Shown in pieces: positions 35,149-52,431 of a DNA stretch of 64,000 bases; within the stretch, counting starts at the first letter, position 1, and the number at the start of each line of letters is the position of its first letter. Position numbers and translations under genes: made by a program. The DNA is from Carboxylicivirga fragile (GTDB lineage Bacteria; Bacteroidota; Bacteroidia; Bacteroidales; Marinilabiliaceae): contig JAFMVD010000003.1 in NCBI GenBank assembly GCA_025499625.1, forward strand, positions 62,001-126,000, in the 5' to 3' direction. The notes under the pieces are model-generated. The model did no database searches and had not been told where the DNA came from. It worked only from the letters and a program-made list of their open reading frames with translations.

Positions 35149-35742
35149 ATGAAACGACTACTTGATTTAGTTGTAGTATTGCTTGGATTGACAGTTGTAT
35201 TGCCTGTTTCATTAATAACGGCGGTGTTTGTTTTGATCTATCATGGAAAACCTGTATTGTTTTCACAGGTTCGACCAGGTAAAGATGCCAAGCCTTTTAA
35301 TATGTATAAATTTAGGTCAATGACGAATGCGACCGATCCAAACGGTAAGCTTTTACCCAATGCTCAACGTATGACAAAATTCGGTGCTTTTCTGAGAAGT
35401 TCGAGTTTGGATGAATTACCAGGTTTGTACAATGTCTTAATTGGAAAGATGAGCCTTGTGGGACCACGACCTTTGTTGATGGATTATTTGCCATTGTACA
35501 ACGATTTTCAGAATAAACGTCATGAAGTCTTACCTGGTATTACAGGTTGGGCACAAGTTAATGGTCGTAACGCAATATCTTGGGACGATAAATTTAAGTT
35601 GGATGTTTGGTATGTTGAGAACCGAAGTTTTTGGCTCGATATTAAAATATTATTCTTAACCTTTTTTAAAGTGTTCAAGCGCGAAGGAATTTCGCATGAA
35701 GGGGATGTGGCTATGCCACGTTTTACTGGTAGTAAAAACTAA
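35149..35742 (+). CDS. Initiating phosphoglycosyl transferase (PglC-like, small monotopic)
   Basis: 197 residues, the size of the PglC catalytic core rather than of long WcaJ enzymes. Seen: a hydrophobic re-entrant helix at residues 1-30, [33 protein letters not shown] with the Asp-Glu catalytic dyad, [10 protein letters not shown], and [20 protein letters not shown]. It transfers a phospho-sugar from a UDP-sugar to undecaprenyl phosphate, the first step of repeat-unit synthesis at the inner membrane. PglC-type enzymes favour UDP-di-N-acetylbacillosamine or related sugars, and a matching 4,6-dehydratase (59583) and aminotransferase (47161) are present. Confidence 0.92.
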
Positions 35743-35788
35743 TATCTTAAAATAGATACAATAACATTATTAATAAAACCTGATAGCT

Positions 35789-36844
35789 ATGAAAATATTA
35801 ATTACTGGTGTAGGCGGTGTAACTCCACGTAGTTTTGCACATTCATTAAGAAAATATAGTAAGTATGCACGTTATGAGATCATTGGCACTGATATTAATA
35901 AGTACGCCATTGGACTTTATATGAATGAGTTGTTTAATAAAACTTATTTAGTTCCTCGTGTTGATGCGCCAAACTATTGGGAAGAGATTGATAAAATAAT
36001 AAAAGAAGAGAAAATTGATATTGCAATAATAAACCCTGAATTGGAAGTTGTAGAGTGGGCCAAAAGAGCTCAAAGTTATGATTTTCCTTGTAAAGTATTA
36101 TTGCCTGATTATAACCTCGCATCTGTTATTGTTGATAAAGCACAATTAACCGATGCCTTAATGCCGTTAGGAATAGTTCCAAAGTCATTTACCATCGATA
36201 AAGATGCTGACATTGATGAACAAGAAGGGAAGTTGGCCTATCCATTTTGGATAAGAAGTGCCTTAGGCTCAAGTGGTCTTGGTTCAATGCTGATTAAATC
36301 TGCTGGTGACTTAAAAAATTGGATTACAATAAATCCAAATGTTGAGAAGTTTTTGGCTAGTGAATACCTGCCAGGAAGAAATCTAGGCTGTAAGATGCTT
36401 TATTATAATGGTAAGTTAGTTAGAAGTGCAATTGCTGAAAGGGTTTACTACATCATGTCAAAGGTTTCCCCATCGGGAATAACAGGTAATACGTGTTTTG
36501 GACGTTTAGTAAATGACGAGGGTGTATTTGATGTTGCCAAGCAGGCTATTGAAACTATGATTGAAAAGACAGGCGCACCAAAGCATGGTTTTTTTACGGT
36601 AGATTTAAAAGAAGATGCTGATGGTAAGCCTATGGTGACAGAGATTAATGTACGTTTTGTTGCATTTACTCAAGCATATGCCGCTGGTGGAGCTAACATT
36701 CCTGAGGATATGATTAGATTGCTCGATGGAGATCCTAACTTCGATATGGAATTCAAATTGTATGAGTTTGAAAAAGACATGATTTTCCTTCGCGATGTGG
36801 ATGAGCAACCAATTATCATGAAGGAGTCACAATTGTTTAGTTAG
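35789..36844 (+). CDS. ATP-grasp carboxylate ligase-like protein
   Basis: 351 residues with PylC/CarB-like ATP-grasp architecture. Seen: ILITGVGGVTPRSFAHSLRK at the N-terminus (Rossmann-like lid), GTDINKYA, PFWIRSALGSSGLGSMLI (ATP-binding loop), FLASEYLPGRNLGCKML, and VDLKEDADGKPMVTEINVR with the metal-binding Glu-x-Asn. Such proteins ligate an amine to a carboxylate using ATP. It sits between the PglC-like gene and the adenylation-ligase module, so I infer a role in amide formation on an amino sugar or in making the group loaded by the module. Substrates unknown. Confidence 0.82.
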   Translation: MKILITGVGGVTPRSFAHSLRKYSKYARYEIIGTDINKYAIGLYMNELFNKTYLVPRVDAPNYWEEIDKIIKEEKIDIAIINPELEVVEWAKRAQSYDFPCKVLLPDYNLASVIVDKAQLTDALMPLGIVPKSFTIDKDADIDEQEGKLAYPFWIRSALGSSGLGSMLIKSAGDLKNWITINPNVEKFLASEYLPGRNLGCKMLYYNGKLVRSAIAERVYYIMSKVSPSGITGNTCFGRLVNDEGVFDVAKQAIETMIEKTGAPKHGFFTVDLKEDADGKPMVTEINVRFVAFTQAYAAGGANIPEDMIRLLDGDPNFDMEFKLYEFEKDMIFLRDVDEQPIIMKESQLFS

Positions 36845-36881
36845 AAATAACTTTTCTAAATTCGTGGTTTTATAAAGAATA

Positions 36882-38369
36882 ATGATGTTTGTAAAAGAAA
36901 TATTAAATCCAGTTTTAAATTCTATTGAGCAGTTTGCGGATCGTAATGCTTTTATGATAGGAGAATCCTATTATACGTATCGCGATTTTGGCTTATGCAT
37001 ATCAAAGGTTAGAGCAAGAATACAAGAATCTGACTTTGAAGGCAAGAACGTTGGATTAATGGCTAATGATGACTTAGAGACATATGCATCAATTTTTGCA
37101 ATATGGTTAGAAGGATTGGCATATGTACCTATTCACCCTAGTTATCCTTTGGATAGAGGGCAAGGAATTATTGAAGAAGCGGAAATTGGATTGTTTATTG
37201 ATTCTTCACTGGATTGTCATTATCAGGAAGTTGTCATTATTAAGAGTAAGGAGCTTTCTGATTGCGAATTAAACCTTGTGCCAGTCAATACCAATGAAGA
37301 TAGTTTAGCCTATATCCTATTTACTTCTGGTAGCACAGGTAAACCTAAAGGCGTGCCCATTACACGAGCTAACTTGGTTGCCTTTATGAGTGCTTTTTGG
37401 CAGATTGGTTTCCAAGTTGATGAAACGGATAAGTGTTTACAGTATTTCGATCTTTCATTTGATATTTCAATTCAATCGTATTTGGTGCCACTACAAAAAG
37501 GGGCTTGTACTTATACAGTAGGTCATGACAAGATAAAACCAACATATACTGTTGAATTACTTGAAGATCATGAATTAACATTTGGAGCGACACCTCCTTC
37601 GATGATACGGTTCTTACGCCCATATTTTGAAGAGATTGATTTACCACATTTAAAATGTAATATTCTTTGTGCGGAGGCATCAGCTCTTGATTTAATTAAG
37701 GAATGGAAGGATTGCATTCCAAATTCAAATATTTATAATTTATATGGTCCAACTGAAGCGACCATATATTGCACATATTCTGAGTTTTACCAGAATAAGA
37801 AAAATAAACATTTAAATGGGATGTTGTCAATTGGAAAGCCTTTAAACGGTGTTGATATTCTTGTTGTTGATGAAGACAATAAGGAGGTATTGAAGGGTGA
37901 GAAAGGTGAGCTTTGCGTTTCAGGAGAACTTGTTACAAAAGGATATTGGAAGAATGAACTGAAAAATGAGGAAGCCTTTTTTATAGAACTATATAATGGC
38001 AAAGAGAAAAGATTTTATAAAACAGGAGATCTTTGTTTTATTGATTCTGATTCTGATATAATGCTTTCCGGAAGATTGGATTATCAAGTAAAGGTGCAAG
38101 GTTATCGAATTGAGCTGGGTGAAATAGAACATTTAGCACGCGAATTTTCTCAAGGTCATAACGCAGTGGCTGTTATTTTTGATAATCGATTAGGTCATAC
38201 AGAAATAGCATTGTTTATTGAGGGAAAAATTGATGTAAAGGAATTAGCAAATTATTTAAAAACTAAGTTGCCAGTTTACATGTGTCCGACAAAACTGATT
38301 TGTGACATTGAATTTCCATTGAATATTAATGGTAAGGTTGATAGGCCACAATTGAGAAAATTAGTTTAA
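36882..38369 (+). CDS. Amino-acid adenylation ligase 1 (DltA-like)
   Basis: 495-residue stand-alone adenylation domain of the NRPS/DltA type, which activates a carboxylic acid with ATP and loads it on a carrier protein. Seen: FTSGSTGKPKG (core A3, residues 147-157), FDLSFD (A4, about 189-194), YGPTEATIY (A5, from 288), YKTGDL (A7), RLDYQVKVQGYRIELGEIE (A8), and NGKVDR with Lys485 (A10). The Asp in the A4 FD-x-S-FD block is the residue that binds the alpha-amino group in amino-acid-activating domains and DltA, suggesting an amino acid substrate. A paralog lies at 39476. Followed by its likely carrier protein after 109 bp. Confidence 0.88.
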   Translation: MMFVKEILNPVLNSIEQFADRNAFMIGESYYTYRDFGLCISKVRARIQESDFEGKNVGLMANDDLETYASIFAIWLEGLAYVPIHPSYPLDRGQGIIEEAEIGLFIDSSLDCHYQEVVIIKSKELSDCELNLVPVNTNEDSLAYILFTSGSTGKPKGVPITRANLVAFMSAFWQIGFQVDETDKCLQYFDLSFDISIQSYLVPLQKGACTYTVGHDKIKPTYTVELLEDHELTFGATPPSMIRFLRPYFEEIDLPHLKCNILCAEASALDLIKEWKDCIPNSNIYNLYGPTEATIYCTYSEFYQNKKNKHLNGMLSIGKPLNGVDILVVDEDNKEVLKGEKGELCVSGELVTKGYWKNELKNEEAFFIELYNGKEKRFYKTGDLCFIDSDSDIMLSGRLDYQVKVQGYRIELGEIEHLAREFSQGHNAVAVIFDNRLGHTEIALFIEGKIDVKELANYLKTKLPVYMCPTKLICDIEFPLNINGKVDRPQLRKLV

Positions 38370-38478
38370 TAAACAGTAGACGTGTTTTAAGAAAGAATTA
38401 CACATTGATAGAGGGTGTCTAATCTGTTGAGCATGATTGTTCGTGTTCAAATGGATAATGAAAATAAATTATTGACGC

Positions 38479-38766
38479 ATGAAAAAAGAAGTTATACAGT
38501 TGATACTTGATTGCATCAAAAATCAAAATAAGAATGATTTAGAATGCAATATAATAGTTGAAGAAACAACAATGTTAATAGGGCAGGATAGTTGTTTTGG
38601 CTCGCTTAGTCTCGCAAATTTATTGATAAGTATTGAAGAAAAGGTTTACGAGCGATTCGAAACTCGAATTGATTTAGTGGATGAGAAAGCTCTAGGCCGA
38701 CCTGATAGTCCTTATAAAAATGTTGAATCCTTAGCTAGTTTTATAAGCGATACAATTAGTTCATAA
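38479..38766 (+). CDS. Acyl carrier protein 1 (atypical)
   Basis: 95-residue acidic helical protein with the carrier-protein pattern. Seen: FGSLSLANLLISIEEKV at about residues 40-56, where Ser42 sits in the place of the phosphopantetheine serine. The usual Asp before it is Gly (GSL rather than DSL). Helix II (LANLLISIEEKV) is otherwise typical. It is about 15 residues longer than common ACPs. Lies between ligase 1 and GNAT 1, so it is the likely thioester partner of both. Whether it can be phosphopantetheinylated is uncertain because of the Asp change. Preceded by a 109-bp gap with no promoter seen. Confidence 0.75.
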   Translation: MKKEVIQLILDCIKNQNKNDLECNIIVEETTMLIGQDSCFGSLSLANLLISIEEKVYERFETRIDLVDEKALGRPDSPYKNVESLASFISDTISS

Positions 38767-38799
38767 ACTGTCGTCTCAATATATTGTAAATATTAAAAT

Positions 38800-39450
38800 A
38801 TGAAAGATTATACATTCAGGAAAGCGAATGAATCCGACATCGATTTTATAGTTGAAAGCATTATTGAAGCTGAGAAATCGGGAACTGATAGGTTAAGTTA
38901 TTCAACATTATTTGGATTGACAGAAGCTGAAGTCCGTAGTTTGTTGTCTGAGGCGTTGATGGAAGATATGGAAGATTGTGATTTATGGTTGTCGGGTTTT
39001 GTTGTTGCAGAATACGAAGGTAGACCAGTTGCATCGCTTAGTGCTTGGGTTGAAGCCTTAAACGGAATTCCCTCAGTAAATGTTAAAGGTAATCTGTTAG
39101 GTTTTTTATTGCCTAGAGAAGCTCTTATGCGGGCTAATAAATTAAACCATATTTGTTCCGAGCTGTCCACAGAATATAAACCTGGTAGTTTTTGGTTGGG
39201 AGCCGCATATGTTGCGCCCGAGCATCAAGGGAATTTACTTTTAGTTAGGCTCTGTCAGGAACAAATTAATCTACACCCTGAAGCAACAGGTGTATATTGT
39301 CAAGTTTTTGCAAATAATGCAGCCTCCATTCAGAACTTTAAACTGATGAAGTTTGAGCTAAGTGAGGAATACAATTCAAATAATGAAAAGATTAATGAGT
39401 TGTTGCCATCAAATGGTAAGTTTATTTTTTATAAAGAATTAAGTCGCTGA
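38800..39450 (+). CDS. GNAT acyltransferase 1
   Basis: 216 residues, GCN5-related N-acyltransferase fold. Seen: FRKANESDIDFIVESIIEAEKSGT at the N-terminus (split here as FRKANESDID and FIVESIIEAEKSG), VVAEYEGRPVASLSAWVEA (strand 4), VAPEHQGNLLLVRL with the acyl-CoA/phosphopantetheine loop, and VFANNAASIQNFKLMKFE, the late Asn-x(n)-F motif. Paralog of the gene at 40965. By position beside an adenylation ligase and carrier protein I infer that it either acetylates the carrier-bound amino acid or moves the carrier-bound acyl group to an amino sugar. Both are untested. Confidence 0.82.
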   Translation: MKDYTFRKANESDIDFIVESIIEAEKSGTDRLSYSTLFGLTEAEVRSLLSEALMEDMEDCDLWLSGFVVAEYEGRPVASLSAWVEALNGIPSVNVKGNLLGFLLPREALMRANKLNHICSELSTEYKPGSFWLGAAYVAPEHQGNLLLVRLCQEQINLHPEATGVYCQVFANNAASIQNFKLMKFELSEEYNSNNEKINELLPSNGKFIFYKELSR

Positions 39451-39475
39451 TAATAAATCTTAAGGATTAGAAATT

Positions 39476-40981
39476 ATGTTTCAAAATTACATTTTACAAC
39501 CAATAGTTAATGCTATTGAATCTTTTTCTCAAAGAAATGCTTTTTTTATTGATGAGAAGCACTATACGTATTCAGAATTAGGTGAAAGTATTTCTAAAAT
39601 TAGAAAAGAGCTAAAATCCATAAATACACCGTCTAAAAATATAGGCTTAATTACGAATGATGATATTGAAACTTACGCATCTATATTAGCGTTATGGATG
39701 GAAGGTTTCGCTTATGTTCCGATTCATCCAGGACATCCACGAAATAGAGGTGAAGAGATCATTAAACAGGCTGATGTTTCTTGGATTGTTGACTCAAGTG
39801 ATAAATCTTTTTTTGATTCCATTAATACGATTAAAACTAAAGATTTAGAGTTTTCGAGTCTTAATCTGGAACTTAGCGAAATTGATGATAGAGAATTAGC
39901 ATATATCTTATTTACTTCGGGGAGTACAGGTGCTCCGAAAGGAGTAACTATTACTAGAAAGAATGTTGGTGCATTTTTAAAATCATTCTGGGATATTGGC
40001 TTTGAGATTGATGAGAATGATAGATGTTTACAATGTTTCGATTTAACTTTCGATGTATCTGTTCAATCTTTTCTTGTGCCTTTAACAAAGGGAGCATGTA
40101 TGTACACCATCCCTCATGATAGAATAAAATATAGCTATGCTTCTGAGTTGCTTGAAGAGCAAGCGTTAACATTTGGGGCTATGGCGCCATCTATGGTCAG
40201 GTTTCTTAAACCATATTTCGATGAAATTGATTTGCCAGAATTAAGGTATAATATATTAACAGCTGAAGCATCACCTTTAAGTTTAATTGATGAATGGTCT
40301 AAGTGTATTCCAAATGCTAAAATATTTGATTTATACGGTCCAACAGAAGCTACCATTTATTGTACTCATAATTTATACACTCGTGAAGGAGAGAATAAAG
40401 AGTTAAATGGAATGTTCTGTATTGGAAAGCCTATGGATGGGGTTTATGCTATTATTTGTGATGAAGAAGGTAAAATTTTACCAAAGAATAAAAAAGGAGA
40501 GCTTTGTGTAGCCGGTGATCAAGTAACTTTAGGATATTGGCGTAATCCTGAGAAAAATGAAAGTTCATTTTTTACTACTGAGTACAATAATGAACAAATG
40601 CGTTTTTATAAAACTGGTGATGCATGTTATATTGATGATCAGGGTGATTTAATGCTAAGTGGTAGATTAGATTACCAAGTTAAAATTCAAGGTTATAGAA
40701 TTGAATTGGGCGAGATTGAATGTCATGTGCGAGACGTACTTGAAGGTAGTAATGCAGTTGCAGTTGTGTATCAGAACAGTTTTGGTACTGATGAAATTGC
40801 CATGTTCATTGAAAATGAAGAGCCAAATAATGAAGCTGTAGTCAAGGAATATTTAAAAACAAAGTTGCCGATATATATGATACCATCAAAGTTTGTATTT
40901 GTTTCAAAGTTTCCAATTAATACGAATGGTAAAACGGATCGGTTAGAGTTAAAAAAACAATTGAGTGATGGATTATATTAA
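39476..40981 (+). CDS. Amino-acid adenylation ligase 2 (DltA-like)
   Basis: 501-residue paralog of the ligase at 36882, sharing by eye roughly half of its residues. Seen: FTSGSTGAPKGV (A3), FDLTFDVSVQSFLVP (A4, again with the amino-group-binding Asp), YGPTEATIYCTH (A5), YKTGDA (A7), RLDYQVKIQGYRIELGEIE (A8), and NGKTDR with Lys486 (A10). The N-terminus aligns with ligase 1 from the first residues, so the start is reliable. Overlaps GNAT 2 by 17 bp. Presumed partner carrier is the ACP at 41643. Substrate probably an amino acid or related acid, and may differ from that of ligase 1. Confidence 0.88.
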   Translation: MFQNYILQPIVNAIESFSQRNAFFIDEKHYTYSELGESISKIRKELKSINTPSKNIGLITNDDIETYASILALWMEGFAYVPIHPGHPRNRGEEIIKQADVSWIVDSSDKSFFDSINTIKTKDLEFSSLNLELSEIDDRELAYILFTSGSTGAPKGVTITRKNVGAFLKSFWDIGFEIDENDRCLQCFDLTFDVSVQSFLVPLTKGACMYTIPHDRIKYSYASELLEEQALTFGAMAPSMVRFLKPYFDEIDLPELRYNILTAEASPLSLIDEWSKCIPNAKIFDLYGPTEATIYCTHNLYTREGENKELNGMFCIGKPMDGVYAIICDEEGKILPKNKKGELCVAGDQVTLGYWRNPEKNESSFFTTEYNNEQMRFYKTGDACYIDDQGDLMLSGRLDYQVKIQGYRIELGEIECHVRDVLEGSNAVAVVYQNSFGTDEIAMFIENEEPNNEAVVKEYLKTKLPIYMIPSKFVFVSKFPINTNGKTDRLELKKQLSDGLY

Positions 40982-41624
40982 CATACGTCATGCGACGGAG
41001 GCAGATATACCTTTTCTGGTTAAAACTATTATTGAAGCTGAAAAGAGTGGTACAGAAGTGTTATCTTATAGTTCGATCTTCGGAGTTACTGAAGCAGAAA
41101 CTGAAGATTATTTAACGCAGGTGCTTGAAGAAGAGATAGATGGTTGTGAATTATCTGTGTCTAGTTTTATGGTGGCTGAGTCAGATAACCAAATAGTAGC
41201 TGCTTTAAGCGCTTGGGTTGAAGGTAGCGAAGGATTAGCGTCGAGTAAATTGAAAGGTAACTTGTTAAGTTTTGTGTTACCTCCTCAGGCAATACAAAAG
41301 GCTGCAAAGGTGAGTGGATTATTAAATCAAGTTCACATTGATTACATAGATGGTACTGTACAGAAAGGGGCAGGTTATGTTATTGAATCATTCCGAAAGA
41401 AAGGCCTACTAGGTCGACTGACAGAAGAGATATTTGCTTATTATAAAGAAAAGAACCCTGAAATAAAAATAGCGCATACTCAGGTGTTTGAGTGTAATAT
41501 ACCTGCTTTAAAAGCGAATCAAAAAATTGGTTTTGAGGTGGTTGATTCGGTTGAGTGTGAGGATTTAACTGTGTTAAAATATTTGCCTTCTAACAAAAAA
41601 TTATTATTAAAAAGACAATTATAA
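40965..41624 (+). CDS. GNAT acyltransferase 2
   Basis: 219-residue GNAT, paralog of GNAT 1. Shared segments include IIEAEKSGTE near residue 22, LSYSSIFGVTEAE, SSFMVAE, ALSAWVEG and SSKLKGNLLSFVLP. The coenzyme loop is FRKKGLLGRLTEEI and the late motif is VFECNIPALKANQKIGFE, closer to a textbook GNAT than GNAT 1. The order is ligase-GNAT-ACP here and ligase-ACP-GNAT in the first set, so a rearrangement followed duplication. Its start lies inside ligase 2, indicating coupled translation. Confidence 0.82.
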   Translation: MMDYINIRHATEADIPFLVKTIIEAEKSGTEVLSYSSIFGVTEAETEDYLTQVLEEEIDGCELSVSSFMVAESDNQIVAALSAWVEGSEGLASSKLKGNLLSFVLPPQAIQKAAKVSGLLNQVHIDYIDGTVQKGAGYVIESFRKKGLLGRLTEEIFAYYKEKNPEIKIAHTQVFECNIPALKANQKIGFEVVDSVECEDLTVLKYLPSNKKLLLKRQL

Positions 41625-41642
41625 CTAATTAAACTATTACTT

Positions 41643-41882
41643 ATGGAAAGAGCTGAAATGTATAAGGAATTGACAGTATTGTTTAGAAAAGTGTTTAATA
41701 ACGATACGCTTGAAGTTACTGATGAACTAACAGCTAACGACGTTGAAAACTGGGATTCATTATCTCACATGTTATTAATAAATGAAGTTGAAGAAAAGTA
41801 CTCAGTTAAATTTAGATTAAAGGAATTGAATAAGATGCGCAATGTCGGTGACATGGTAGATATCTTATTGACAAAGGTATAG
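41643..41882 (+). CDS. Acyl carrier protein 2 (DltC/ACP-like)
   Basis: 79-residue acidic carrier protein. Seen: WDSLSHMLLINEVEEKY with Ser39 in a normal D-S-L phosphopantetheine site, LTANDVENWDSLSH before it, and FRLKELNKMRNVGDMVDIL as the last helix. Typical length and charge for DltC/PCP/ACP. It is the last gene before a hairpin terminator and the MBOAT genes. Inferred: holds the acyl group activated by ligase 2 and presents it to GNAT 2 or the MBOAT proteins. Confidence 0.9.
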   Translation: MERAEMYKELTVLFRKVFNNDTLEVTDELTANDVENWDSLSHMLLINEVEEKYSVKFRLKELNKMRNVGDMVDILLTKV

Positions 41883-41952
41883 CTTGTGTAATTAGCAGTC
41901 CTACTATATTATGTATTGATATATAGGATACTACTTATTGGTAAAAGACTAT

Positions 41953-42007
41953 TAGGCTCTTCTTGTTTACTATTTATTTAGTAAATGATGAGAGCCTATT
42001 CTTTTAT
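41953..42007 (+). terminator. Hairpin terminator after ACP 2
   Basis: TAGGCTCT (41953-41960) pairs with AGAGCCTA (41991-41998), and inside it TTTACT (41966-41971) pairs with AGTAAA (41980-41985). A T-rich stretch follows. Strongest terminator-like structure within the large plus-strand array. Confidence 0.6.
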
Positions 42008-42098
42008 TGTTTGATGGGGATTTTAATGTAGTTTATCAGTGCAAATAGATCACTTATCAAATTGACCAAATTCTGCCCTGTAGCGCTGACAAAATTTC

Positions 42099-42107
42099 TA
42101 TTTTTGC
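42099..42107 (+). promoter_or_regulatory. Candidate promoter -7 element for MBOAT 1
   Basis: TATTTTTGC fits the TAnnTTTGC -7 consensus of Bacteroidota. No TTTG is found at the right distance upstream, so this is a partial match. It would give a leader of about 100 nt before the MBOAT 1 start at 42212. Confidence 0.35.
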
Positions 42108-42211
42108 ATTGCTATAATTTCGTTGAAGGATGATGAAATGATACTTATTTTATGCCTTATGTCATTTTTTGTTCGATTATATTAGAAATAGATGATTAAT
42201 TCGTATTTGTA

Positions 42212-43645
42212 ATGGTTTTTACCTCGTTAAATTTTTTTATTTTCTTCCCGATCGTCCTGTTGTTATTTTATCTGGTTCCGGTAAAGTATAGATGGATTGT
42301 GTTGCTCGGAGCTAGTTACTTCTTTTATATTAACATTAAGCCTGTATATGTAGTTTTACTTCTGTTCATTACGCTGTCAACTTACATTTTTACAAGGTGG
42401 ATTGATTCAAGTCCCGATGAAGATAAAAAAAGGTTATTGATGCGAGTCAATATCGTCTTAATCCTGTTGCCACTTTTATTTTTTAAGTATTTTGCCTTTG
42501 TAAATAATCAATTGTTGGATCTAATGGTTGCTAATAATTTAAGGTGGCCATTACCTGAAGTTAGCTTCTTATTACCAATCGGAATTTCGTATTACACATT
42601 TATGTGTATTGGATATACAATTGATGTATATAATGAAGATATAAAAGCAGAAAAACATCTGGGTATTGTTGCATTATTTACAGCCTTCTTTCCTTTGATA
42701 TTATCAGGCCCAATTGAACGAGCCGGAAATATGATTCCGCAGTTCAAAAATATTAAATCAATTAAAGCTCATAACTTGTCGGCTGGTTTAAAATTTATGC
42801 TTTGGGGCTATTTTATGAAATTAGTTGTTGCCGATCGTTTAGGTATATATATTGATAATGTATATGGTGATATTGTTGGTCATAATGGGAATAGTTTATT
42901 AATAGCGACTGTACTCTACCCTTTTCAAGTATACGCCGATTTAGGAGGGTATTCATTAATCGCCATTGGTGTGGCTAAACTTATGGGATTTGATGTTATG
43001 CAGAATTTTGAACGGCCATTTTTTGCGACAAGTATGGCTGACTTTTGGCGACGATGGCATATGTCATTAATTACTTGGTTAACAGACTATGTTTATACAC
43101 CATTGTCTTTTACATTTCGTAAAATTGGCATGATTGGAATTATAATTGCTTTAATGGTTACCTTTTTGTTAAGTGGTATTTGGCACCACACTGATATGAC
43201 TTCAGTTATGTGGGGATTATCACAAGGTACTTTTTTAAGTATTGAAGCTATATTTCATAAACGGAGAAATAAATTTGAGGAAAAATACAGACTTAACTCC
43301 CGAGCTTTATACATTACTTTTTGCATAATTACTACATTCATCTTATTTACATCTTCACAGGTATTTGGTAGAGCAGATACCTTGGGTGAATCTTGGATGA
43401 TATTTAATAAAATCTTTGTTGATAGAGGTGTCCCATATCTCGATATGACAACTCTTGCCTTTGCGCTCTTAGGGCTTGGTGTATTGCTTTTAAAAGATTT
43501 TAAGAATGAGTTTAAACCTCGAATTTTGGTATGGGTATTTGATAAGAACTTGGTACGCTACCTATCTTATTCAATTGTGTTTTATATGATATTGTTGATG
43601 GGGGTTTTTAACAATGGTGGATCCTTTATCTATTTTAAATATTAG
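42212..43645 (+). CDS. MBOAT acyltransferase 1 (DltB/AlgI superfamily)
   Basis: 477-residue polytopic membrane-bound O-acyltransferase that carries acyl groups across the inner membrane onto a glycan. Seen: ILPIGISYYTFMCIGYTIDVY-type block near 120-140, SGPIERAGNMIPQF, FWRRWH at 278-283, and SGIWHH with catalytic His325. Compared with AlgI-like enzymes it lacks the IPLGG loop (YTPLSF instead) and has His after the catalytic His, so it belongs to a distinct subgroup. MBOAT 2 at 44717 is very similar throughout. The stop overlaps the SGNH 1 start. DltB works with a carrier protein, a ligase and an SGNH partner, all present here. Confidence 0.9.
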   Translation: MVFTSLNFFIFFPIVLLLFYLVPVKYRWIVLLGASYFFYINIKPVYVVLLLFITLSTYIFTRWIDSSPDEDKKRLLMRVNIVLILLPLLFFKYFAFVNNQLLDLMVANNLRWPLPEVSFLLPIGISYYTFMCIGYTIDVYNEDIKAEKHLGIVALFTAFFPLILSGPIERAGNMIPQFKNIKSIKAHNLSAGLKFMLWGYFMKLVVADRLGIYIDNVYGDIVGHNGNSLLIATVLYPFQVYADLGGYSLIAIGVAKLMGFDVMQNFERPFFATSMADFWRRWHMSLITWLTDYVYTPLSFTFRKIGMIGIIIALMVTFLLSGIWHHTDMTSVMWGLSQGTFLSIEAIFHKRRNKFEEKYRLNSRALYITFCIITTFILFTSSQVFGRADTLGESWMIFNKIFVDRGVPYLDMTTLAFALLGLGVLLLKDFKNEFKPRILVWVFDKNLVRYLSYSIVFYMILLMGVFNNGGSFIYFKY

Positions 43646-44667
43646 TGATGAGAAAGTTTTACATTAAAATAGTCGTTTTTGGTACGGCATTGGTTATTCC
43701 ACTGTTAGTTTTTATTGGGCTTTACATTCACTTTGATCCATTTAAGATTGTTGGAGAATATGATACCTTCTATGATACTGAGATTGTTCCTAATCGCGAT
43801 TATATATCAACCGAGATTTTTTTAGATCAGAAGTACGATTATAATTCCTTTATTTTTGGAAGCTCGAGAGCAATAGCCTTTAAGGCTAGGTCATGGGAGA
43901 AGTATCTGGATGAAAATGCAAAACCTTTTGTATTTGATGCCTCTGGAGAATCATTATTTGGAATCTATAAGAAGATAAAGTTTTTAGAGAAGAGGGGAAC
44001 TAATCTTGATAATGTTTTTATCTTATTTTGCCGAAATGGTGTTTGCATCAATGATAATTATGACGAACATTTGAATATTAAGCACCCATTGGTTTCTGAG
44101 GAGAGTTGGTTCAAATTTCATTTTACTTTTTTTAAATCGTATTTTGAGCTCAAGTTTTTACTTGGCTATTATTCGTATATGATTACTGGACAAGAAAGTG
44201 CTTTGACTTCTGGAATAATACAAGATGGAGGTATCTCTATTGATTATGAGAATAATCAAATTCTGCTGGACACATTAGATCTTCAAATAAATAGCAACAC
44301 TGCAAAATATTATAAGGAGAACCGACATATCTTTTACGAGCAGGAGAATGAGTCGTATGAAGAAGAGCAAAAATTACAAGCTTCACATATTGAAATGCTA
44401 AAGGAAATAAAAGAGATATTGGAGCGGAATAATACTAAATACAAGGTTGTTCTTAGTCCAATTTACGATCAGGTTAAATTCTCACCAGAGGATAAGAGTA
44501 GTCTAAAAATGGTTTTTGGTGATCACCTTTACGATTTTACAGGAGAAAACTTCATAACAAGTGATTATACCAATTGGTATGAAACTTTTCACTATCGACC
44601 ATTTATTGCTGATAGTATAATGAATATTGTTTATTCAGATACCATTGATGTGAAACAGTGGAGATGA
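43645..44667 (+). CDS. SGNH-type membrane-anchored partner 1 (DltD/AlgJ-like role)
   Basis: 340 residues. Seen: one N-terminal membrane anchor (about residues 8-28), then a periplasmic domain with FIFGSSRAI, the Ser block of SGNH-like proteins, and a C-terminal block NWYETFHYRP that corresponds to the Asp/His region, although a clean D-x-x-H is not evident. Proteins of this layout are encoded directly after MBOAT genes in Dlt, alginate and cellulose acetylation systems and act in the final acyl transfer. It begins in the stop codon of MBOAT 1. It is not closely similar to SGNH 2 or 3. Confidence 0.75.
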   Translation: MMRKFYIKIVVFGTALVIPLLVFIGLYIHFDPFKIVGEYDTFYDTEIVPNRDYISTEIFLDQKYDYNSFIFGSSRAIAFKARSWEKYLDENAKPFVFDASGESLFGIYKKIKFLEKRGTNLDNVFILFCRNGVCINDNYDEHLNIKHPLVSEESWFKFHFTFFKSYFELKFLLGYYSYMITGQESALTSGIIQDGGISIDYENNQILLDTLDLQINSNTAKYYKENRHIFYEQENESYEEEQKLQASHIEMLKEIKEILERNNTKYKVVLSPIYDQVKFSPEDKSSLKMVFGDHLYDFTGENFITSDYTNWYETFHYRPFIADSIMNIVYSDTIDVKQWR

Positions 44668-44716
44668 TTTGTGAGTGTAGTTATTGTATAGTAATTCAAA
44701 ATGTTAAGTAGATAAT

Positions 44717-46150
44717 ATGCTTTTTACTTCTTTTAATTTTTTCATCTTTTTCCCCATAGTAATCTTACTTTACTACCTAACGCCTGTTAAGTATAGGTGG
44801 ATGGTGCTACTGGGGGCAAGTTATTTTTTCTACATTAATATAAAGCCTGTTTATGCAATCTTATTATTAGCAATCACAGCTTCAACCTATATTTTTACCA
44901 GAATGATTGATTCAACTGGAGATGAAGATAGGAAGTTGTTGCTGATGCGGATTAATGTAGCTTTGATTTTAGTGCCACTATTCTTTTTTAAGTATTTTAC
45001 AATAATAAATAATGAATTACTCGAATTGTTGGAATTGAATAACCTTAGGTGGCCTTTACCTGAGATAAAATTCATTCTCCCCATAGGTATTTCCTATTAT
45101 ACCTTTATGAGTATTGGTTATACTATCGATGTCTATAATGAAGACATAAAGGCTGATAAACATTTTGGTCGAGTGGCTTTATTTACTGCTTTCTTTCCTT
45201 TAATTCTTTCAGGTCCAATTGAACGTGCGGGCAATATGTTACCACAATTCAAAAACCTTAAACAAATAAATTTCAGTAATATCTCGGGTGGATTAAAAAT
45301 GATGCTGTGGGGATATTTTATGAAATTAGTTGTAGCTGATAGAATTGGAATATATGTTGATGCTATCTATGGTGATATTCTTGGTCATAATGGAACTAGC
45401 TTATTAATTGCCACAGTACTTTATCCTTTCCAAGTATATGCTGATTTAGGTGGTTATTCGTTAATCGCTATAGGTGTTGCAAAGATCTTAGGAATAGATG
45501 TAATGCAAAATTTTAATAGACCATTTTTTGCAACAAGTATGGCTGAGTTTTGGCGTCGTTGGCACATGTCGTTAATAACTTGGTTAACTGATTATGTTTA
45601 CACTCCATTATCTTTTGCTTTCAGAAAAATTGGAATGCTTGGTATAATAATAGCTTTAATGGTAACCTTTCTTTTAAGTGGGATATGGCATCACGCCGAT
45701 ATGACATCGATAATGTGGGGACTTACGCAAGGTACTTTTTTAAGTATAGAGGCGCTACTGCACAAAAGAAGGTTTAGGCTTGAAGAAAAGTATCAATTAA
45801 CGAAAAGTTCACTGTACCTTTTTTCTTGTATGTTGGTCACATTTGTATTGTTTTCGGCTTCCCAAATATTCGGTAGAGCTGTAACAATTGAAGATTCTTG
45901 GGCAATTTTTGATAAGTTATTTACGAATATAGGTGTCCCATATCTTGATCTAACAACCTTGTTATATTCTTTTATTGGCATCTTTTTACTACTTATAAAA
46001 GATTTTAAGAATGAATTTATGCCTGTTGCGTTCAATTCTTATTGGAATCGAAAATTATACTTACGTTATGCCGCCTACTTAACGGTTCTATTTGGAATAA
46101 TATTATTCGGTGTTTTTGAAGGAGGTAACTTTATTTATTTTCAATTTTAA
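44717..46150 (+). CDS. MBOAT acyltransferase 2 (DltB/AlgI superfamily)
   Basis: 477 residues, same length as MBOAT 1 and similar along the whole length (for example KYRWMVLLGASYFFYINIKP against KYRWIVLLGASYFFYINIKP). Seen: FWRRWHMSLITWLTDYVYTP and SGIWHHADMTSIMWG, with the same His-His pair and missing IPLGG loop. The two genes arose by tandem duplication of an MBOAT-SGNH unit, but the SGNH partners have diverged much more. Likely serves the second ligase/ACP set, or a second acceptor site. Confidence 0.9.
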   Translation: MLFTSFNFFIFFPIVILLYYLTPVKYRWMVLLGASYFFYINIKPVYAILLLAITASTYIFTRMIDSTGDEDRKLLLMRINVALILVPLFFFKYFTIINNELLELLELNNLRWPLPEIKFILPIGISYYTFMSIGYTIDVYNEDIKADKHFGRVALFTAFFPLILSGPIERAGNMLPQFKNLKQINFSNISGGLKMMLWGYFMKLVVADRIGIYVDAIYGDILGHNGTSLLIATVLYPFQVYADLGGYSLIAIGVAKILGIDVMQNFNRPFFATSMAEFWRRWHMSLITWLTDYVYTPLSFAFRKIGMLGIIIALMVTFLLSGIWHHADMTSIMWGLTQGTFLSIEALLHKRRFRLEEKYQLTKSSLYLFSCMLVTFVLFSASQIFGRAVTIEDSWAIFDKLFTNIGVPYLDLTTLLYSFIGIFLLLIKDFKNEFMPVAFNSYWNRKLYLRYAAYLTVLFGIILFGVFEGGNFIYFQF

Positions 46151-46154
46151 TATA

Positions 46155-47066
46155 ATGAAGAAAAAGGATTTTGTTATAAAATTACTCGTGCTGGTTGTAG
46201 CATTTTTTATAATAGATTTTGGATTGTCGACAGTACTGTTGAGAGGTTTAAATAAGTATTATGGTTTGGAAAAACAAACTGAGGTATTATTTAATGGTTC
46301 TTCAATGTTTATGTCTGGTTTTGACAGAAATGTGGTTGAAAATAAAACAGGGTTAACCGTTAGTAATTATTCGCACGAAGGCGTTTCAATCAGAGAGCGA
46401 TTGGAAATGATAAAACAAGTTTACCATAAACATCCTGAGGGATTTGAAACTGTAGTGTTTGAGTTGTCGCCTGTTATTTTTTCCGGTGTTGAAACATCGG
46501 CAAATGTCTATACGGCATTCTTTCCATTTATGGATGATGAATCAATAAATGTATACATTAAAGAATTTGCGACGACACGTGAATATTATATTCGTAAAAT
46601 AGTTCGTACATCGAGATTTGATTCTCGATTAATTGTGAATATTATTAAAGGCTACCTGGGGAAGTTTCAAAATGTAAAAACAAGTCAGCTACATTCTCGC
46701 ATTGACGAAGAACTTAAAGCGAGTGAAGGAGCAGTGAATATTTATATGAAAGAATCTAATATTGCGATTTTTAAAGAAGCGATTGACTTAATAATTTCTA
46801 AAAATTCCAAAGTTATACTTGTAAATATGCCTGTTTATAATGCTAAGTTGAGAACTTTTAATGTTAATGATTATAAAGAGTTTAACGACTTTTTAGAAAC
46901 GTATAGTTTGTCTAATAGTCAGATTTCATATTTAAATATGAATGTGGATAGTATAATTTCAGAAAGAAAATATTTTTCTGACCCTTTACATATTAATAAC
47001 TATGGACAAAAAGTGCTTAATAGTATTGTCAGTGAAGAATTAAACAAAATTACTTCAATCAATTAA
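46155..47066 (+). CDS. SGNH-type membrane-anchored partner 2 (DltD-like)
   Basis: 303 residues from ATG 46155, 4 bp after the MBOAT 2 stop; an upstream in-frame start at 46110 lies inside MBOAT 2 and adds no plausible sequence. Seen: N-terminal membrane segment (about residues 7-30), LFNGSSMFMSGFD with the SGNH serine, VVFELSPVIFSG, and FSDPLHINNYGQKVL with the catalytic Asp-x-x-His. All key residues of a DltD/SGNH periplasmic domain are visible. Role inferred from the MBOAT pair: last step of acyl transfer to the glycan. Confidence 0.82.
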   Translation: MKKKDFVIKLLVLVVAFFIIDFGLSTVLLRGLNKYYGLEKQTEVLFNGSSMFMSGFDRNVVENKTGLTVSNYSHEGVSIRERLEMIKQVYHKHPEGFETVVFELSPVIFSGVETSANVYTAFFPFMDDESINVYIKEFATTREYYIRKIVRTSRFDSRLIVNIIKGYLGKFQNVKTSQLHSRIDEELKASEGAVNIYMKESNIAIFKEAIDLIISKNSKVILVNMPVYNAKLRTFNVNDYKEFNDFLETYSLSNSQISYLNMNVDSIISERKYFSDPLHINNYGQKVLNSIVSEELNKITSIN

Positions 47067-47160
47067 TTTGGGTTATTGTGGAAAGAGTTTTTGTGTTTGA
47101 GTGCAATTCAAATACAAACGTTCAGTCTAGAAGAACATTAAATAATTAGATTTAACTATT

Positions 47161-48303: not shown

Positions 48304-48321
48304 TATAGAAGTTGAAACCGG

Positions 48322-49332
48322 ATGAATAAGGCAGAACGCATACAAAAAACTAAAATTCATAAGTTGTTTCGTCCCTTTTACGGAGGAATTGGACATGCGA
48401 TAATGTTTCATCGTATTCAGAATGAAGAAGGTCATCTAATTACAAAAGGTTTACAAATAACTCAAAGTTTTCTCGAAGAAATAATTCAATACTTTATTTC
48501 TCAAAATATTGACATGGTTTCGCTTGATGAATTTTATGAGCGTTTAACCTCACGTAAAAAAACTAAACGATTTGTGACCTTTACCTTTGATGATGGTTAT
48601 GTTGATAACCTAACGCATGCATTACCTGTTTTTGAAAAGTATAATGCACCATTTTCGGTATTTGTAACAACAGGTTATTCCGATAAAAAAGTCACACTTT
48701 GGTGGTATCTAGTGGAGCAATATATCCTTAAGAATGATACAATAGAGTTTGATTATGATGATAAAAAGTATTTATTTCATACAAGCAGTGAAGAGGAGAA
48801 AAGAATTGCATTTTCTAAGATAAAGGTATTGCTTTTAGAGAGTAAAAGTGAGAACGAGTATCGGAATAGGGTAAATGCGATTTTTGAAAATACTGATATT
48901 GACCTTTACGGTTTGAATGATGAATTAATTATGTCATGGGATCAAGTGAAGGAGTTAAGTGAGCATCCTCTTGCAACGATAGGAGCACATACGGTTAATC
49001 ATTTAGCGTTAAGGCAACTTGATGAAAAAGAGGTGGTTGAGGAGATTAAGGGGTCGATTAAACGCTTGGAAGAGGTTATAGGAGATAGCGTTTCGTATTT
49101 TGCTTATCCTTATGGAACAAAAAATGAGGCTGGTGAAAAAGATTTTGTAATAGCCGAGCAGTGTGGTCTTAAAATGGCTTTTACAACTGAGAAGGATAAT
49201 ATCTTTAAAAAACAAGTCAACGAATTACATTCAATTCCTCGTTTGGGAATTAATAGTACTATGACTACTGCGCATATTGATATGTTTGTAAATGGTATGA
49301 CGCCTTTTATAAGTAAATTTGTTGAAGTATAA
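48322..49332 (+). CDS. Polysaccharide deacetylase (NodB/CE4 family)
   Basis: 336 residues. Seen: AIMFHRI at the N-terminus, TFTFDDGYVDNLTHALP (catalytic Asp and metal Asp), IGAHTVNHLAL (His-Thr-x-x-His metal site), and YFAYPYG. These are canonical CE4 motifs in correct order. No signal peptide is visible. A cytoplasmic CE4 downstream of an aminotransferase could deacetylate an acetamido sugar of the lipid-linked intermediate. It is more canonical than the CE4 at 2791 and unrelated in detail to the divergent paralogs at 24163 and 32520. Confidence 0.88.
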   Translation: MNKAERIQKTKIHKLFRPFYGGIGHAIMFHRIQNEEGHLITKGLQITQSFLEEIIQYFISQNIDMVSLDEFYERLTSRKKTKRFVTFTFDDGYVDNLTHALPVFEKYNAPFSVFVTTGYSDKKVTLWWYLVEQYILKNDTIEFDYDDKKYLFHTSSEEEKRIAFSKIKVLLLESKSENEYRNRVNAIFENTDIDLYGLNDELIMSWDQVKELSEHPLATIGAHTVNHLALRQLDEKEVVEEIKGSIKRLEEVIGDSVSYFAYPYGTKNEAGEKDFVIAEQCGLKMAFTTEKDNIFKKQVNELHSIPRLGINSTMTTAHIDMFVNGMTPFISKFVEV

Positions 49333-49397
49333 ATAGTGATGGTGGTATTTATCACTTACTATATAGTTTAAATTTTGAAATTAAATAATATTACGAT

Positions 49398-50015: not shown

Positions 50016-51467
50016 ATGTTATTTAACTCACTTGATTTTGCCGTATTTCTTCCGCTTGTTTTTATACTCTATTGGTTTATATGCAATAGAAACCTTCGAC
50101 TGCAGAATTTATTAATAGTAGCTGCCAGTTATGTTTTTTATGGCTGGTGGGATTATCGCTTTTTGTTATTGATCGTTATTAGTACAGTCGTTGATTACTT
50201 AATTGGGCATAGACTAAGAACCGAAGAGCGGAAAGATATTCGGAAAGTTCTGTTATGGACTAGCATCTGTGTTAACCTTGGTTTTTTAGGCTTCTTTAAA
50301 TATTATAATTTTTTTATAGATAACTTTACTTCTGCATTTAGTTTCTTTGGCAGAGACATTCAGATTAGTTCATTACACATTATCTTACCTGTTGGAATTA
50401 GTTTTTATACGTTTCAAACCCTAAGCTATACCTTTGATGTTTATAAGTATAAACTTGAACCAACAAAGGATTTTATTGCTTTTTCGGCTTATGTGAGTTT
50501 CTTTCCACAATTAGTTGCTGGTCCTATTGAAAGGGCCATTAACTTACTACCACAGTTTTATAAAAAACGTAGTTTTGAGTATTCAAAGGCAGTTGATGGA
50601 TTAAGGCAGATTCTGTGGGGATTTTTTAAAAAACTGGTTATCGCTGATAATTGTGCAGAATTCGCTAATATTATTTTTAACAATAGTGAACTCTACTCTG
50701 GGAGCACACTATTTCTTGGAGCCATCTTTTTTACCTTTCAAATTTACGGTGATTTTTCTGGTTATTCGGATATTGCTATTGGTACCTCGCGCTTGTTTGG
50801 TTTTAATTTAATGCAGAATTTTGCTTTTCCATATTTCTCACGGGATATTGCCGAATTTTGGAGGCGTTGGCATATTTCATTGTCGACCTGGTTTCGTGAT
50901 TATTTATACATACCATTAGGCGGGAGCAAAGGTGGAACATGGATGAAAATTAGAAATACATTCATCATCTTTTTGGTGAGTGGATTTTGGCATGGTGCAA
51001 ACTGGACCTTCATTATTTGGGGAGCTTTAAACGCTATCTATTTTCTTCCATTGATGCTGACTAAGAATAATCGCAAGAACATTGAAATAGTTGCTAATAA
51101 ATCCTTTCTACCGGGATTAAGAGAGTCTGGCGCCATTATTATCACATTTTTATTGACTGTATTTGCATGGATCTTCTTTAGAGCAGAAAATGTAGGTCAG
51201 GCATTTGATATTATTATTAAAGTATTATCGCCTTCTTTATTTATGAAGCCATTTTTTCCAAATTTAAGTGGGGCACTAACAACTTTAATTCTTATTGCAA
51301 TTTTTGTGATTATTGAGTGGAATGGAAGAAGGGGTAAGTATGCCATTGAGAACTTAGGTCATAATTATAAGCGCCCTATTCGATGGGCTTTTTATTCGTG
51401 TATCATTTTCATGATTGGTTTATTTATGCAAACCAGCGAAAGTCCATTTATTTATTTTCAGTTTTAA
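50016..51467 (+). CDS. MBOAT acyltransferase 3 (AlgI-like)
   Basis: 483-residue polytopic MBOAT. Seen: ILPVGISFYTFQTLSYTFDVY-type block near 125-143, AGPIERAINLLPQF, FWRRWHISLSTWFRDYLYIP followed by LGGSKGG, and SGFWHGANWTFIIWG with catalytic His326. These are the full motifs of AlgI-like polysaccharide O-acetyltransferases, so it differs from MBOAT 1 and 2, which lack the IPLGG loop and have His-His. It is likely to perform plain O-acetylation and to work independently of the duplicated pair. The SGNH 3 gene follows after 10 bp. Confidence 0.92.
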   Translation: MLFNSLDFAVFLPLVFILYWFICNRNLRLQNLLIVAASYVFYGWWDYRFLLLIVISTVVDYLIGHRLRTEERKDIRKVLLWTSICVNLGFLGFFKYYNFFIDNFTSAFSFFGRDIQISSLHIILPVGISFYTFQTLSYTFDVYKYKLEPTKDFIAFSAYVSFFPQLVAGPIERAINLLPQFYKKRSFEYSKAVDGLRQILWGFFKKLVIADNCAEFANIIFNNSELYSGSTLFLGAIFFTFQIYGDFSGYSDIAIGTSRLFGFNLMQNFAFPYFSRDIAEFWRRWHISLSTWFRDYLYIPLGGSKGGTWMKIRNTFIIFLVSGFWHGANWTFIIWGALNAIYFLPLMLTKNNRKNIEIVANKSFLPGLRESGAIIITFLLTVFAWIFFRAENVGQAFDIIIKVLSPSLFMKPFFPNLSGALTTLILIAIFVIIEWNGRRGKYAIENLGHNYKRPIRWAFYSCIIFMIGLFMQTSESPFIYFQF

Positions 51468-51477
51468 AGTATAAATT

Positions 51478-52431
51478 GTGAAAAGATTTTTTTTAACTCT
51501 CTTATCATTTGCTCTTTTTTCGATAGTGTGCTATTTAAGTTTACTTGTTATTTGGGCTCAGTTTGAACCTGAGAAACTAAAGACAAATTTTAATTATCGA
51601 ATTGGTTCTTTCGGGCACACATATACAAGGTTGAAAGAGGTTAAAACTGTTAGTGATGTTGATATATTGTTTTTAGGTTCTTCTCATGCATATAGGGGGT
51701 TTGATACAAGAAATTTTGAAGCGAATGGGTATAAAACTTTTAACTTAGGAACGAGTGCCCAAACACCAATGCAAACAAAAATTCTTTTAAATAAGTATTT
51801 AGATCAATTAGGCCCAAAATTGGTAATTCTAGAGGTATATCCTGAAATAATGACCATTGATGGCATGGAGTCCTTTCTTGACATTATATCGAATGATGAG
51901 GTTAATTTTGAAATTCTTAAACTTTCGTTAAAGGTAAATCATACGAAAGTGTACAATACTCTTTTTTATAGTGTTATATCTGATTTTTTTGGTATTCATG
52001 ACAACCACATTGAACCAAAGGTAAAAGGAATTGATATATATATTAATGGGGGATATGTTGAAACTAAATTGAATAAGCAATTTGTTGGGGATTCGATAGG
52101 TAGTAAGGAGCTTATTTTTTTGGATGAACAACTAGAGGCTTTCGAGGATATAATACAACTAATTAATAATAATGGCTCGGAATTACTGCTAGTGTTTGCT
52201 CCTGTTAGTTCTGTTTTGTACGATAGTTATGTGAATGTTGACATTTTTAATGACTTGATGACTAGCCATGGTAACTATTATAATTTTAACAAGAATATAA
52301 ACATTGAGGATAGTATTCATTTTTTTGATGATAATCATTTAAATCAAAAAGGGGTAAATATTTTTAATGAAGAGTTGATTAAGCTAATTAATCAAACTAA
52401 CTTGCTTAATAAAATCATTTCAGATATTTAA
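51478..52431 (+). CDS. SGNH-type membrane-anchored partner 3 (AlgJ/DltD-like role)
   Basis: 317 residues starting with GTG. Seen: one N-terminal membrane anchor (about residues 5-25), LFLGSSHAYRGFD with the Ser block, KLVILEVYPEIM, and FFDDNHLNQKGVNIF with an acidic residue and His of the last block. As with other SGNH proteins next to an MBOAT gene, it should act in the periplasm at the acetylation step. Not closely similar to SGNH 1 or 2. Last gene of the long plus-strand polysaccharide array. Confidence 0.78.
   Translation: MKRFFLTLLSFALFSIVCYLSLLVIWAQFEPEKLKTNFNYRIGSFGHTYTRLKEVKTVSDVDILFLGSSHAYRGFDTRNFEANGYKTFNLGTSAQTPMQTKILLNKYLDQLGPKLVILEVYPEIMTIDGMESFLDIISNDEVNFEILKLSLKVNHTKVYNTLFYSVISDFFGIHDNHIEPKVKGIDIYINGGYVETKLNKQFVGDSIGSKELIFLDEQLEAFEDIIQLINNNGSELLLVFAPVSSVLYDSYVNVDIFNDLMTSHGNYYNFNKNINIEDSIHFFDDNHLNQKGVNIFNEELIKLINQTNLLNKIISDI

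Follow-up and report, generated by a model that had tools for sequence, protein, structure and literature searches.

What would a Gram-negative bacterium attach to its polysaccharide with a set of Dlt-like genes to which GNAT enzymes have been added? The question is posed by a locus at positions 36882-47066 of a 64,000-nucleotide stretch of DNA from the marine bacterium Carboxylicivirga fragile (assembly GCA_025499625.1, contig JAFMVD010000003.1, positions 62,001 to 126,000, forward strand; hereafter the window). A preliminary description had listed two ligases, two GNATs, two carrier-like proteins, two MBOATs and two SGNH proteins here, and all ten open reading frames (ORFs) were confirmed. 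They share the plus strand and run from ligase A1 through carrier protein CP1, GNAT1, ligase A2, GNAT2, CP2, MBOAT1, SGNH1, MBOAT2 and SGNH2. Our preferred answer, for which we judge the case about evenly balanced, is that a conserved, carrier-fed cassette for glycan acylation has been expanded here, and that its GNAT would N-acylate a carrier-bound amino acid. The ten genes are as follows.

36882..38369, plus strand: ligase A1, pocket code DIQAICLIYK (AMP-binding, E 6e-64; amino-acid adenylation domain TIGR01733, 306 bits)
38479..38766, plus strand: CP1, a carrier-like protein of 95 residues with a GSL motif (alignments, a weak profile match to acyl carrier protein (ACP) and DltC, iterated search)
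38800..39450, plus strand: GNAT1, with the pyrophosphate-loop Arg replaced by Gln and the family Tyr by Phe
39476..40981, plus strand: ligase A2, pocket code DVQAITLIYK (AMP-binding, E 7e-57; TIGR01733, 311 bits)
40965..41624, plus strand: GNAT2, its start overlapping the end of A2, with the Arg kept and the family Tyr replaced by Asn (AlphaFold2 model, Foldseek)
41643..41882, plus strand: CP2, ACP-like, with a DSL motif (PP-binding, E 7e-4, slightly below cut-off)
42212..43645, plus strand: MBOAT1 (PF03062; DltB structures, E 1e-23), with the tail FIYFKY at residues 472-477 (43625-43642)
43645..44667, plus strand: SGNH1, probably DltD-like (low-confidence model, DltD fold match, motif alignment)
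44717..46150, plus strand: MBOAT2 (PF03062), with the tail FIYFQF (46130-46147)
46155..47066, plus strand: SGNH2, probably DltD-like (iterated profile, a relative that passes Pfam DltD, an 18-protein profile against structure 6o93)

The start of SGNH2 is likely the ATG at 46155, 5 bases past the MBOAT2 stop, rather than the GTG at 46110 taken by the ORF tool. The gap at 41883-42211 holds no listed ORF of at least 60 residues.

The preliminary description had staked its reading on this gene set recurring in other genomes, and it recurs. A search with GNAT1 matched 5 of 149 genomes (its own included), three of them among the 14 of its own genus, and a six-row GNAT alignment searched against species genomes returned 30 loci. 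By their titles these are mostly Bacteroidota, with three Ignavibacteria, one Chlorobiaceae, one Gammaproteobacteria and two entries titled 'uncultured bacterium', and those nearest to the window belong to an uncultured Carboxylicivirga and to a Marinilabiliaceae bacterium. Strong GNAT matches (E<1e-25) occurred in 19 of the 395 genomes of the class sample; the other 30 of the 49 matching genomes were weak (E 3e-9 to 9e-4) and were excluded. Across 48 GNAT loci, a ligase was found in 36 and a carrier in 32 (within 1 kb on the same strand), an MBOAT in 27 (within 6 kb) and all three in 24. These tallies omit L009 and L010, which duplicate L030 and L033, respectively; L024 and L039 are near copies, and the GNAT of L077 was missed by the ORF rule of the tally, though matched in the class GNAT search. 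The repeated unit is thus one cassette of ligase, GNAT, carrier and MBOAT, and an SGNH gene is usually drawn beside it (no tally).

Seen against this unit, the window is a local expansion, in which ligase, GNAT and MBOAT are doubled and CP1 is added. The preliminary description had called the locus a duplicated Dlt system with the full part list present twice; the Dlt-like parts stand, the duplication of a complete set does not. L008/L013 has two ligases and two GNATs with one ligase-linked MBOAT, and L009/L030 combines a single ligase, GNAT and ligase-linked MBOAT with both carriers, so that among these loci the ligase-linked MBOAT is doubled in the window alone. Because L009/L030 has both carriers although its ligase, GNAT and ligase-linked MBOAT are single, CP1 and CP2 are different proteins rather than close paralogues; they share 29% identity over 73 residues. 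SGNH1 and SGNH2, at 22% identity, are not close paralogues either, whereas MBOAT1 and MBOAT2 are sisters at 74%. On these gene contents and identities we rejected a plain tandem duplication of a four-gene Dlt operon.

The cassette also varies in other loci. In L010, two larger proteins stand between carrier and MBOAT (4634-9617), both GDSL proteins and one with LysM, and by similarity the same variant occurs in L031, L035, L036 and L082-L084. A glyoxalase-family protein lies between ligase and GNAT in L009 (11013), L024 (9560), L032 (9534), L039 (7157) and L159 (1088), and a glyoxalase-superfamily protein is in the cassette of L167 (3021) as well; the assignment is Pfam-based in L009 and by similarity in the others. 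That such a protein acts on the alpha carbon of the loaded group is speculation. L014 contains the GNAT–carrier pair twice, and L038 has four GNATs around an FkbH-type protein (7244, Pfam), a type also seen, by similarity, in L023 (2644).

What do the ligases load? Both match AMP-binding, and their best family is amino-acid adenylation, in which they fall slightly below the TIGR01733 cut-off of 317 bits. Of 69 aligned ligases, including two references, 68 retain the Asp responsible for binding the alpha-amino group (the exception, from L011, has a gap there; L042_2904, a neighbouring AMP-binding protein without the Asp, was excluded before the count). The preliminary description had spoken of an amino-acid-like group, and this conservation points to an amino acid and not a fatty acid; on the strength of the retained Asp and of the best-matching family, we rejected the reading of these enzymes as fatty-acid ligases. 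D-Alanine is not indicated for A1 and A2 either, because their pockets share only 3 of 10 and 2 of 10 residues, respectively, with that of the reference DltA of E. casseliflavus (DLMILCTVAK). Against the DltA equivalog TIGR01734, whose cut-off is 559.85 bits, the two ligases reach 256 and 275 bits. Ligases of this kind may be called D-alanine ligase by similarity, a name that the pockets in the window do not back. The DVQ.I-type code presumably resembles prolyl-type codes, a resemblance that we did not use; the code string did not occur among the matches listed in the literature search.

In a ligase tree, A1 and A2 pair with the first and second ligases of L013, respectively, both within a group that we term code II; the 18/18 GNAT linkage of code-II ligases in that tree holds by construction, because the species-genome scan that gave the 30 loci was itself made with the GNAT. 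In the wider ligase family, the most frequent code, DLMLLCVIFK (code I), matches the E. casseliflavus DltA pocket at 6 of 10 positions. These include the Leu and Cys positions, which contact D-alanine in DltA and lie near glycine in AlmE, as described in an excerpt of PMC11253843, and a small neutral amino acid is, judging from the pocket, a plausible substrate of the code-I ligases.

A stand-alone carrier beside the ligase, as in Dlt, is provided by CP2, which has the DSL motif, scores 20.2 bits against the PP-binding cut-off of 20.8 and is the carrier type of the conserved cassette. CP1 had no Pfam match, even at E 10. A profile of its three family members, all with a Ser at the carrier position, reached an ACP and DltC at no better than E 0.24 and 0.38, respectively, too weak a match to class CP1 as an ordinary ACP; in a set of 1052 ORFs, it reached the reference DltC at E 0.003. 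We regard CP1 as a probable carrier. Its only relatives among the fetched loci are in L013 and L030 (the same genomes as L008 and L009).

The GNATs had been singled out in the preliminary description as the part that Dlt systems do not have, and they are indeed a real addition. Both fall under the Pfam cut-off (E 0.003). The AlphaFold2 model of GNAT2 has a mean predicted local distance difference test (pLDDT) score of 96.5 (alignment of 30 sequences) and shows the GNAT fold, which extends to GNAT1 through its 39% identity to GNAT2. Foldseek searches with the model returned agmatine (E 5e-10), dopamine, polyamine, puromycin and N-terminal acetyltransferases, so that the closest solved structures are amine N-acetyltransferases, and sequence searches with the family profile returned N-terminal, spermidine and phosphinothricin acetyltransferases. 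Among 56 GNAT relatives, Glu86 is kept in all 56, Arg144 in 51 and the motif B Tyr in 46, residues for which we presume functional roles. GNAT2 had no match in a plasmid collection.

The distribution of the GNAT tends to follow that of the ligase and its pocket code. In the class sample, taken as the same 395 genomes in the GNAT and ligase searches (size and handles agree), a ligase (E<=1e-120) was found in 17 of 19 GNAT genomes versus 18 of 376 GNAT-free genomes, with ligase and GNAT on different contigs in several genomes, among them 5 of those 17. Ligase-first searches found 35 of 395 class genomes and 30 of 393 in the order sample. A GNAT was present in 15 of 15 class genomes with the DltA-like code-I pattern DLxL[LQ]CxI versus 2 of 20 others (Fisher p 4e-8), and in 8 of 9 order genomes with that code versus 4 of 20 others (p 9e-4), both values being inflated because the genomes are related. 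The pattern was drawn up after viewing the class sample, and the order sample was examined later; its table holds 29 genomes, G000 being omitted as already in the class table. One ligase locus was coded per genome, leaving out the second ligases of G543 and G273 (L144, not code I). A second GNAT-like family, of about 250 residues, adjoins ligases with other codes (for example, DAHKLGVINK) in 9 of the 29 order genomes, in which the window-type GNAT was not found at E<=1e-15. From these sequence patterns, we read the GNATs as matched to the loaded amino acid. Members of the second family stand beside a ligase in L131 (8611), L128 (1604), L143 (6374), L015 (4324) and nine of the loci L169-L185.

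How would a loaded group leave the cell? MBOAT1 and MBOAT2 match PF03062 above its cut-off and carry the catalytic His in the motif GIWHH; a third MBOAT of the window, MBOAT3, which has no ligase of its own, has GFWHG. None reaches the 375-bit cut-off of the DltB equivalog TIGR04091 (160 and 154 bits for MBOAT1 and MBOAT2, 138 bits for MBOAT3). According to an excerpt of PMC12148441, the acyl group is relayed by a Tyr of DltX in the Dlt system, and in PatA by a Tyr of a C-terminal FxYxxF of the MBOAT itself. That motif lies within the last 25 residues in 52 of 54 MBOATs of the fetched loci and the window, and in a relaxed form in 54 of 54 (MBOAT2 is strict; MBOAT1 ends in Tyr and is relaxed), against 1 of 691 other ORFs of at least 200 residues, itself an MBOAT3-like piece (L032, 13728). 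The reference DltB has no such tail. Of the 54 MBOATs, 24 have ligase, carrier and GNAT within 5 kb, and 13 more have ligase and carrier. No candidate for a separate DltX emerged, a gap that the preliminary description had not noted: none of 140 small ORFs (25-110 residues, positions 35000-53800) has a strict FxYxxF near its end, and three have the relaxed F.Y..x. By its sequence signature, the DltX-type shuttle motif is fused to the MBOATs.

The three SGNH proteins of the window, SGNH1, SGNH2 and SGNH3, had no Pfam match at E 0.001 and were missed by Pfam DltD. A relative of SGNH2 in L009 (41% identity) passes Pfam DltD, however, at 28.5 bits against a cut-off of 22.7; the iterated SGNH2 profile gathers 41 SGNH members in the fetched loci; and the best solved structure for a profile of 18 SGNH2-type proteins is DltD 6o93 (E 8e-4). 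SGNH1, whose model is of low confidence (pLDDT 63.9), also has its best fold match to DltD (6o93, E 2.8e-4) and keeps the G-S-S motif and the His, suggesting that it is probably DltD-like.

Comparison with known systems places the cassette between two of them. Like Dlt (DltA, DltX, DltB, DltC and DltD; D-alanylation of teichoic acid), it has a ligase, a carrier, an MBOAT and a probably DltD-like SGNH protein; unlike Dlt, the window adds a GNAT, has its shuttle fused to the MBOAT with no separate DltX found and, by context (a flippase and an EpsG-type protein), would act on a Gram-negative polysaccharide. Like the O-acetylation systems PatA/PatB and AlgI/J/X, as described in the excerpt of PMC12148441, it has an MBOAT with a C-terminal FxYxxF, a conserved His and an SGNH partner; those pathways are described there as using acyl-CoA without a carrier protein, whereas in the cassette ligase and carrier lie beside the MBOAT. 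Because MBOATs beside ligase and carrier bear the PatA-type tail that is absent from the reference DltB, the cassettes appear to couple a front end of Dlt type, fed by a carrier, to a back end of PatA/AlgI type. This pairing is not among the pathways set out in that excerpt.

Two further systems share parts of the front end. AlmE/AlmF/AlmG, which glycylates lipid A in Vibrio cholerae, likewise uses a stand-alone amino-acid ligase on a Gram-negative envelope glycolipid (PMC11253843, in excerpt). The AlmE structure 4oxi is among the matches of our ligases. Unlike the cassette, AlmEFG is not known to include a GNAT, and AlmG is not known to be an MBOAT–SGNH pair. In Segatella copri (L156, NZ_CP085933.1, a record labelled plasmid), a ligase 40% identical to A2 occurs with a carrier and an acyltransferase in a polysaccharide locus; unlike the cassette, the stretch shown has no annotated GNAT, MBOAT or SGNH, and ligase, ACP, an AAC(3)-like enzyme and an alanine racemase lie side by side. 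A racemase near our cassettes was considered and dropped, as the S. copri racemase query gave two chance-level matches in the fetched loci.

We propose the following route. A ligase would activate an alpha-amino acid and load it onto CP2, a step suggested by family and pocket; the GNAT would then N-acylate, probably N-acetylate, the amino group of the carrier-bound amino acid; the MBOAT, by analogy with PatA, would move the group across the membrane and onto the Tyr in its FxYxxF tail; and the probably DltD-like SGNH protein would use its Ser to transfer it to a hydroxyl of the exported polysaccharide. The two arms of the window probably either load a different group each or divide the work, one extending what the other has loaded, and GNAT1 is without the residue that would usually hold the pyrophosphate of coenzyme A (CoA). 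N-acetylalanyl and N-acetylglycyl groups do occur in O-polysaccharides, amide-linked to amino sugars, according to an excerpt of PMC3210612.

Several observations weigh against this route. The known N-acetylaminoacyl groups of that excerpt are amides and not esters. Both window GNATs lack the family Tyr and GNAT1 also lacks the Arg, so their activity may be changed. L013, in the first of its GNATs, and L030, in its only one, show the same losses as GNAT1, and GNATs with such losses may, from these substitutions, use another donor (for example, a carrier-bound one) or be partly inactive. In a relatedness-corrected test of the link between pocket code and GNAT, three supported independent pairs were available, of which on average two agree and none opposes, far from significance. 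No GNAT was found in genomes G671 and G830, which have code-II ligases, or in G136, which has a code-I ligase, and 12 of 55 GNAT genes have no nearby ligase, carrier or MBOAT under the same-strand rule. The tail is no proof of a carrier donor, because MBOAT3, without a ligase, bears the same one; nor does the adjacency of ligase and carrier genes to the MBOAT prove the donor. The iterated SGNH2 profile, finally, did not recruit the reference DltD. We rejected the notion that the GNAT is an obligate partner of every such ligase on the strength of G136, G671 and G830.

The GNAT might instead acylate a 4-amino sugar nucleotide made by the aminotransferase encoded at 47161, perhaps from an aminoacyl-carrier donor, with the MBOAT–SGNH pairs performing ordinary O-acetylation; PseH and WecD acylate such nucleotides. 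The aminotransferase gene adjoins the cassette and has close relatives in L013, L022 and L030, N-acetylalanyl groups on amino sugars are known (PMC3210612, in excerpt), and the S. copri ligase, ACP, AAC(3)-like transferase and racemase have no annotated MBOAT in the 13.4 kb shown. Yet this gene lies outside the conserved cassette, with relatives (>100 bits) in 3 of 24 cassette loci (flanks of up to 10 kb, several contigs being short), whereas an MBOAT is within 6 kb in 27 of 48 GNAT loci, and we consider sugar acylation unlikely. We are similarly doubtful of plain Dlt-like aminoacylation, in which free amino acid esters would be made and the GNAT would have an accessory role, in making or salvaging the amino acid or in acetylating product that has been spilled. 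Eleven GNAT-free ligase–carrier–MBOAT cassettes in the class fit that account (L121, L127, L129, L130, L132-L134, L137 and L139-L141; in L121, of genome G394, a GNAT is on another contig). An accessory role is harder to reconcile with the 39 of 55 GNAT genes that lie within 1 kb of a same-strand ligase and with the overlap of GNAT2 and A2, and the different GNAT-like family beside ligases of other codes better suits a role on the loaded group.

A short assembly line, in which one GNAT would join the aminoacyl group held by CP1 to the amino group on aminoacyl-CP2 and a dipeptide-like group would be exported, would fit the occurrence of both carriers beside a single ligase (L009/L030) as well as beside two (L008/L013 and the window), and the loss of the pyrophosphate-loop Arg in GNAT1 might fit a carrier-bound donor. 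With CP1 in three loci only, and with a single ligase and two carriers in L030 permitting at most a homo-dimer, we regard this as quite improbable.

N-acylation of a carrier-bound amino acid is the reading that we prefer, and a broader version of it can be put forward more tentatively: that these loci represent an undescribed branch of envelope acylation, mainly in Bacteroidota, in which a ligase-matched GNAT N-caps carrier-bound amino acids and fused-shuttle MBOATs deliver neutral N-acylaminoacyl esters, the two arms and carriers of the window building or mixing two groups. No description of the ligase–GNAT–carrier–MBOAT–SGNH cassette was found among the matches listed in the open-access literature (titles and abstract starts; most subscription papers lie outside that scope). 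On the gene content, we would call the cassette a known kind of system in a new form, with the N-capping step a bold and unproven element. If the GNAT does cap the amino acid, glycans would bear neutral N-acylaminoacyl esters instead of the cationic esters of Dlt, a decoration without positive charge, the reverse of what Dlt is generally accepted to be for, and the GNAT bacteria (19 of 395 class genomes) would bear a glycan chemistry so far apparently unsought. The excerpt of PMC12148441 sets carrier-fed Dlt, with DltX, apart from CoA-fed MBOAT–SGNH systems with a fused shuttle; because the cassettes combine both types, they could serve to probe what enables an MBOAT to work with a carrier.

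The surrounding locus is a polysaccharide locus, in keeping with the setting suggested in the preliminary description. The genes upstream of the cassette encode a flippase and an EpsG-type protein, along with glycosyltransferases and a UDP-sugar dehydrogenase, as well as a priming sugar transferase and an ATP-grasp protein. Downstream, besides a third MBOAT–SGNH pair, are an amino-sugar aminotransferase, a polysaccharide deacetylase, a hexapeptide transferase and a protein bearing a type IX secretion tail. Four of these neighbours are located as follows.

35149..35742, plus strand: priming sugar transferase of the polysaccharide locus (PF02397, E 5e-63)
35789..36844, plus strand: ATP-grasp protein, found near the cassette also in L018 and L022
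47161..48303, plus strand: LegC/PseC-like amino-sugar aminotransferase, below the cut-offs of those models
50016..52431, plus strand: third MBOAT–SGNH pair, without its own ligase (MBOAT3 tail FIYFQF)

The third MBOAT–SGNH pair (50016-52431) had been overlooked in the preliminary description; in L013 and L030, too, an MBOAT–SGNH pair follows the aminotransferase. Adjoining the locus, on the minus strand at 54876-57368, is a gene for a secreted, Pel9A-like beta-helix protein with a PKD domain and a type IX secretion tail, which possibly acts on the polysaccharide. A second exopolysaccharide-like locus starts in the last bases of the window and extends beyond it (L012, G000:C74:120001-136000, positions 8661-15262). 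It encodes a glyoxalase-like protein, an ACP with a DSM motif, a third ligase and a sugar transferase, together with proteins that, judged by eye, resemble asparagine synthase and NAD synthase.

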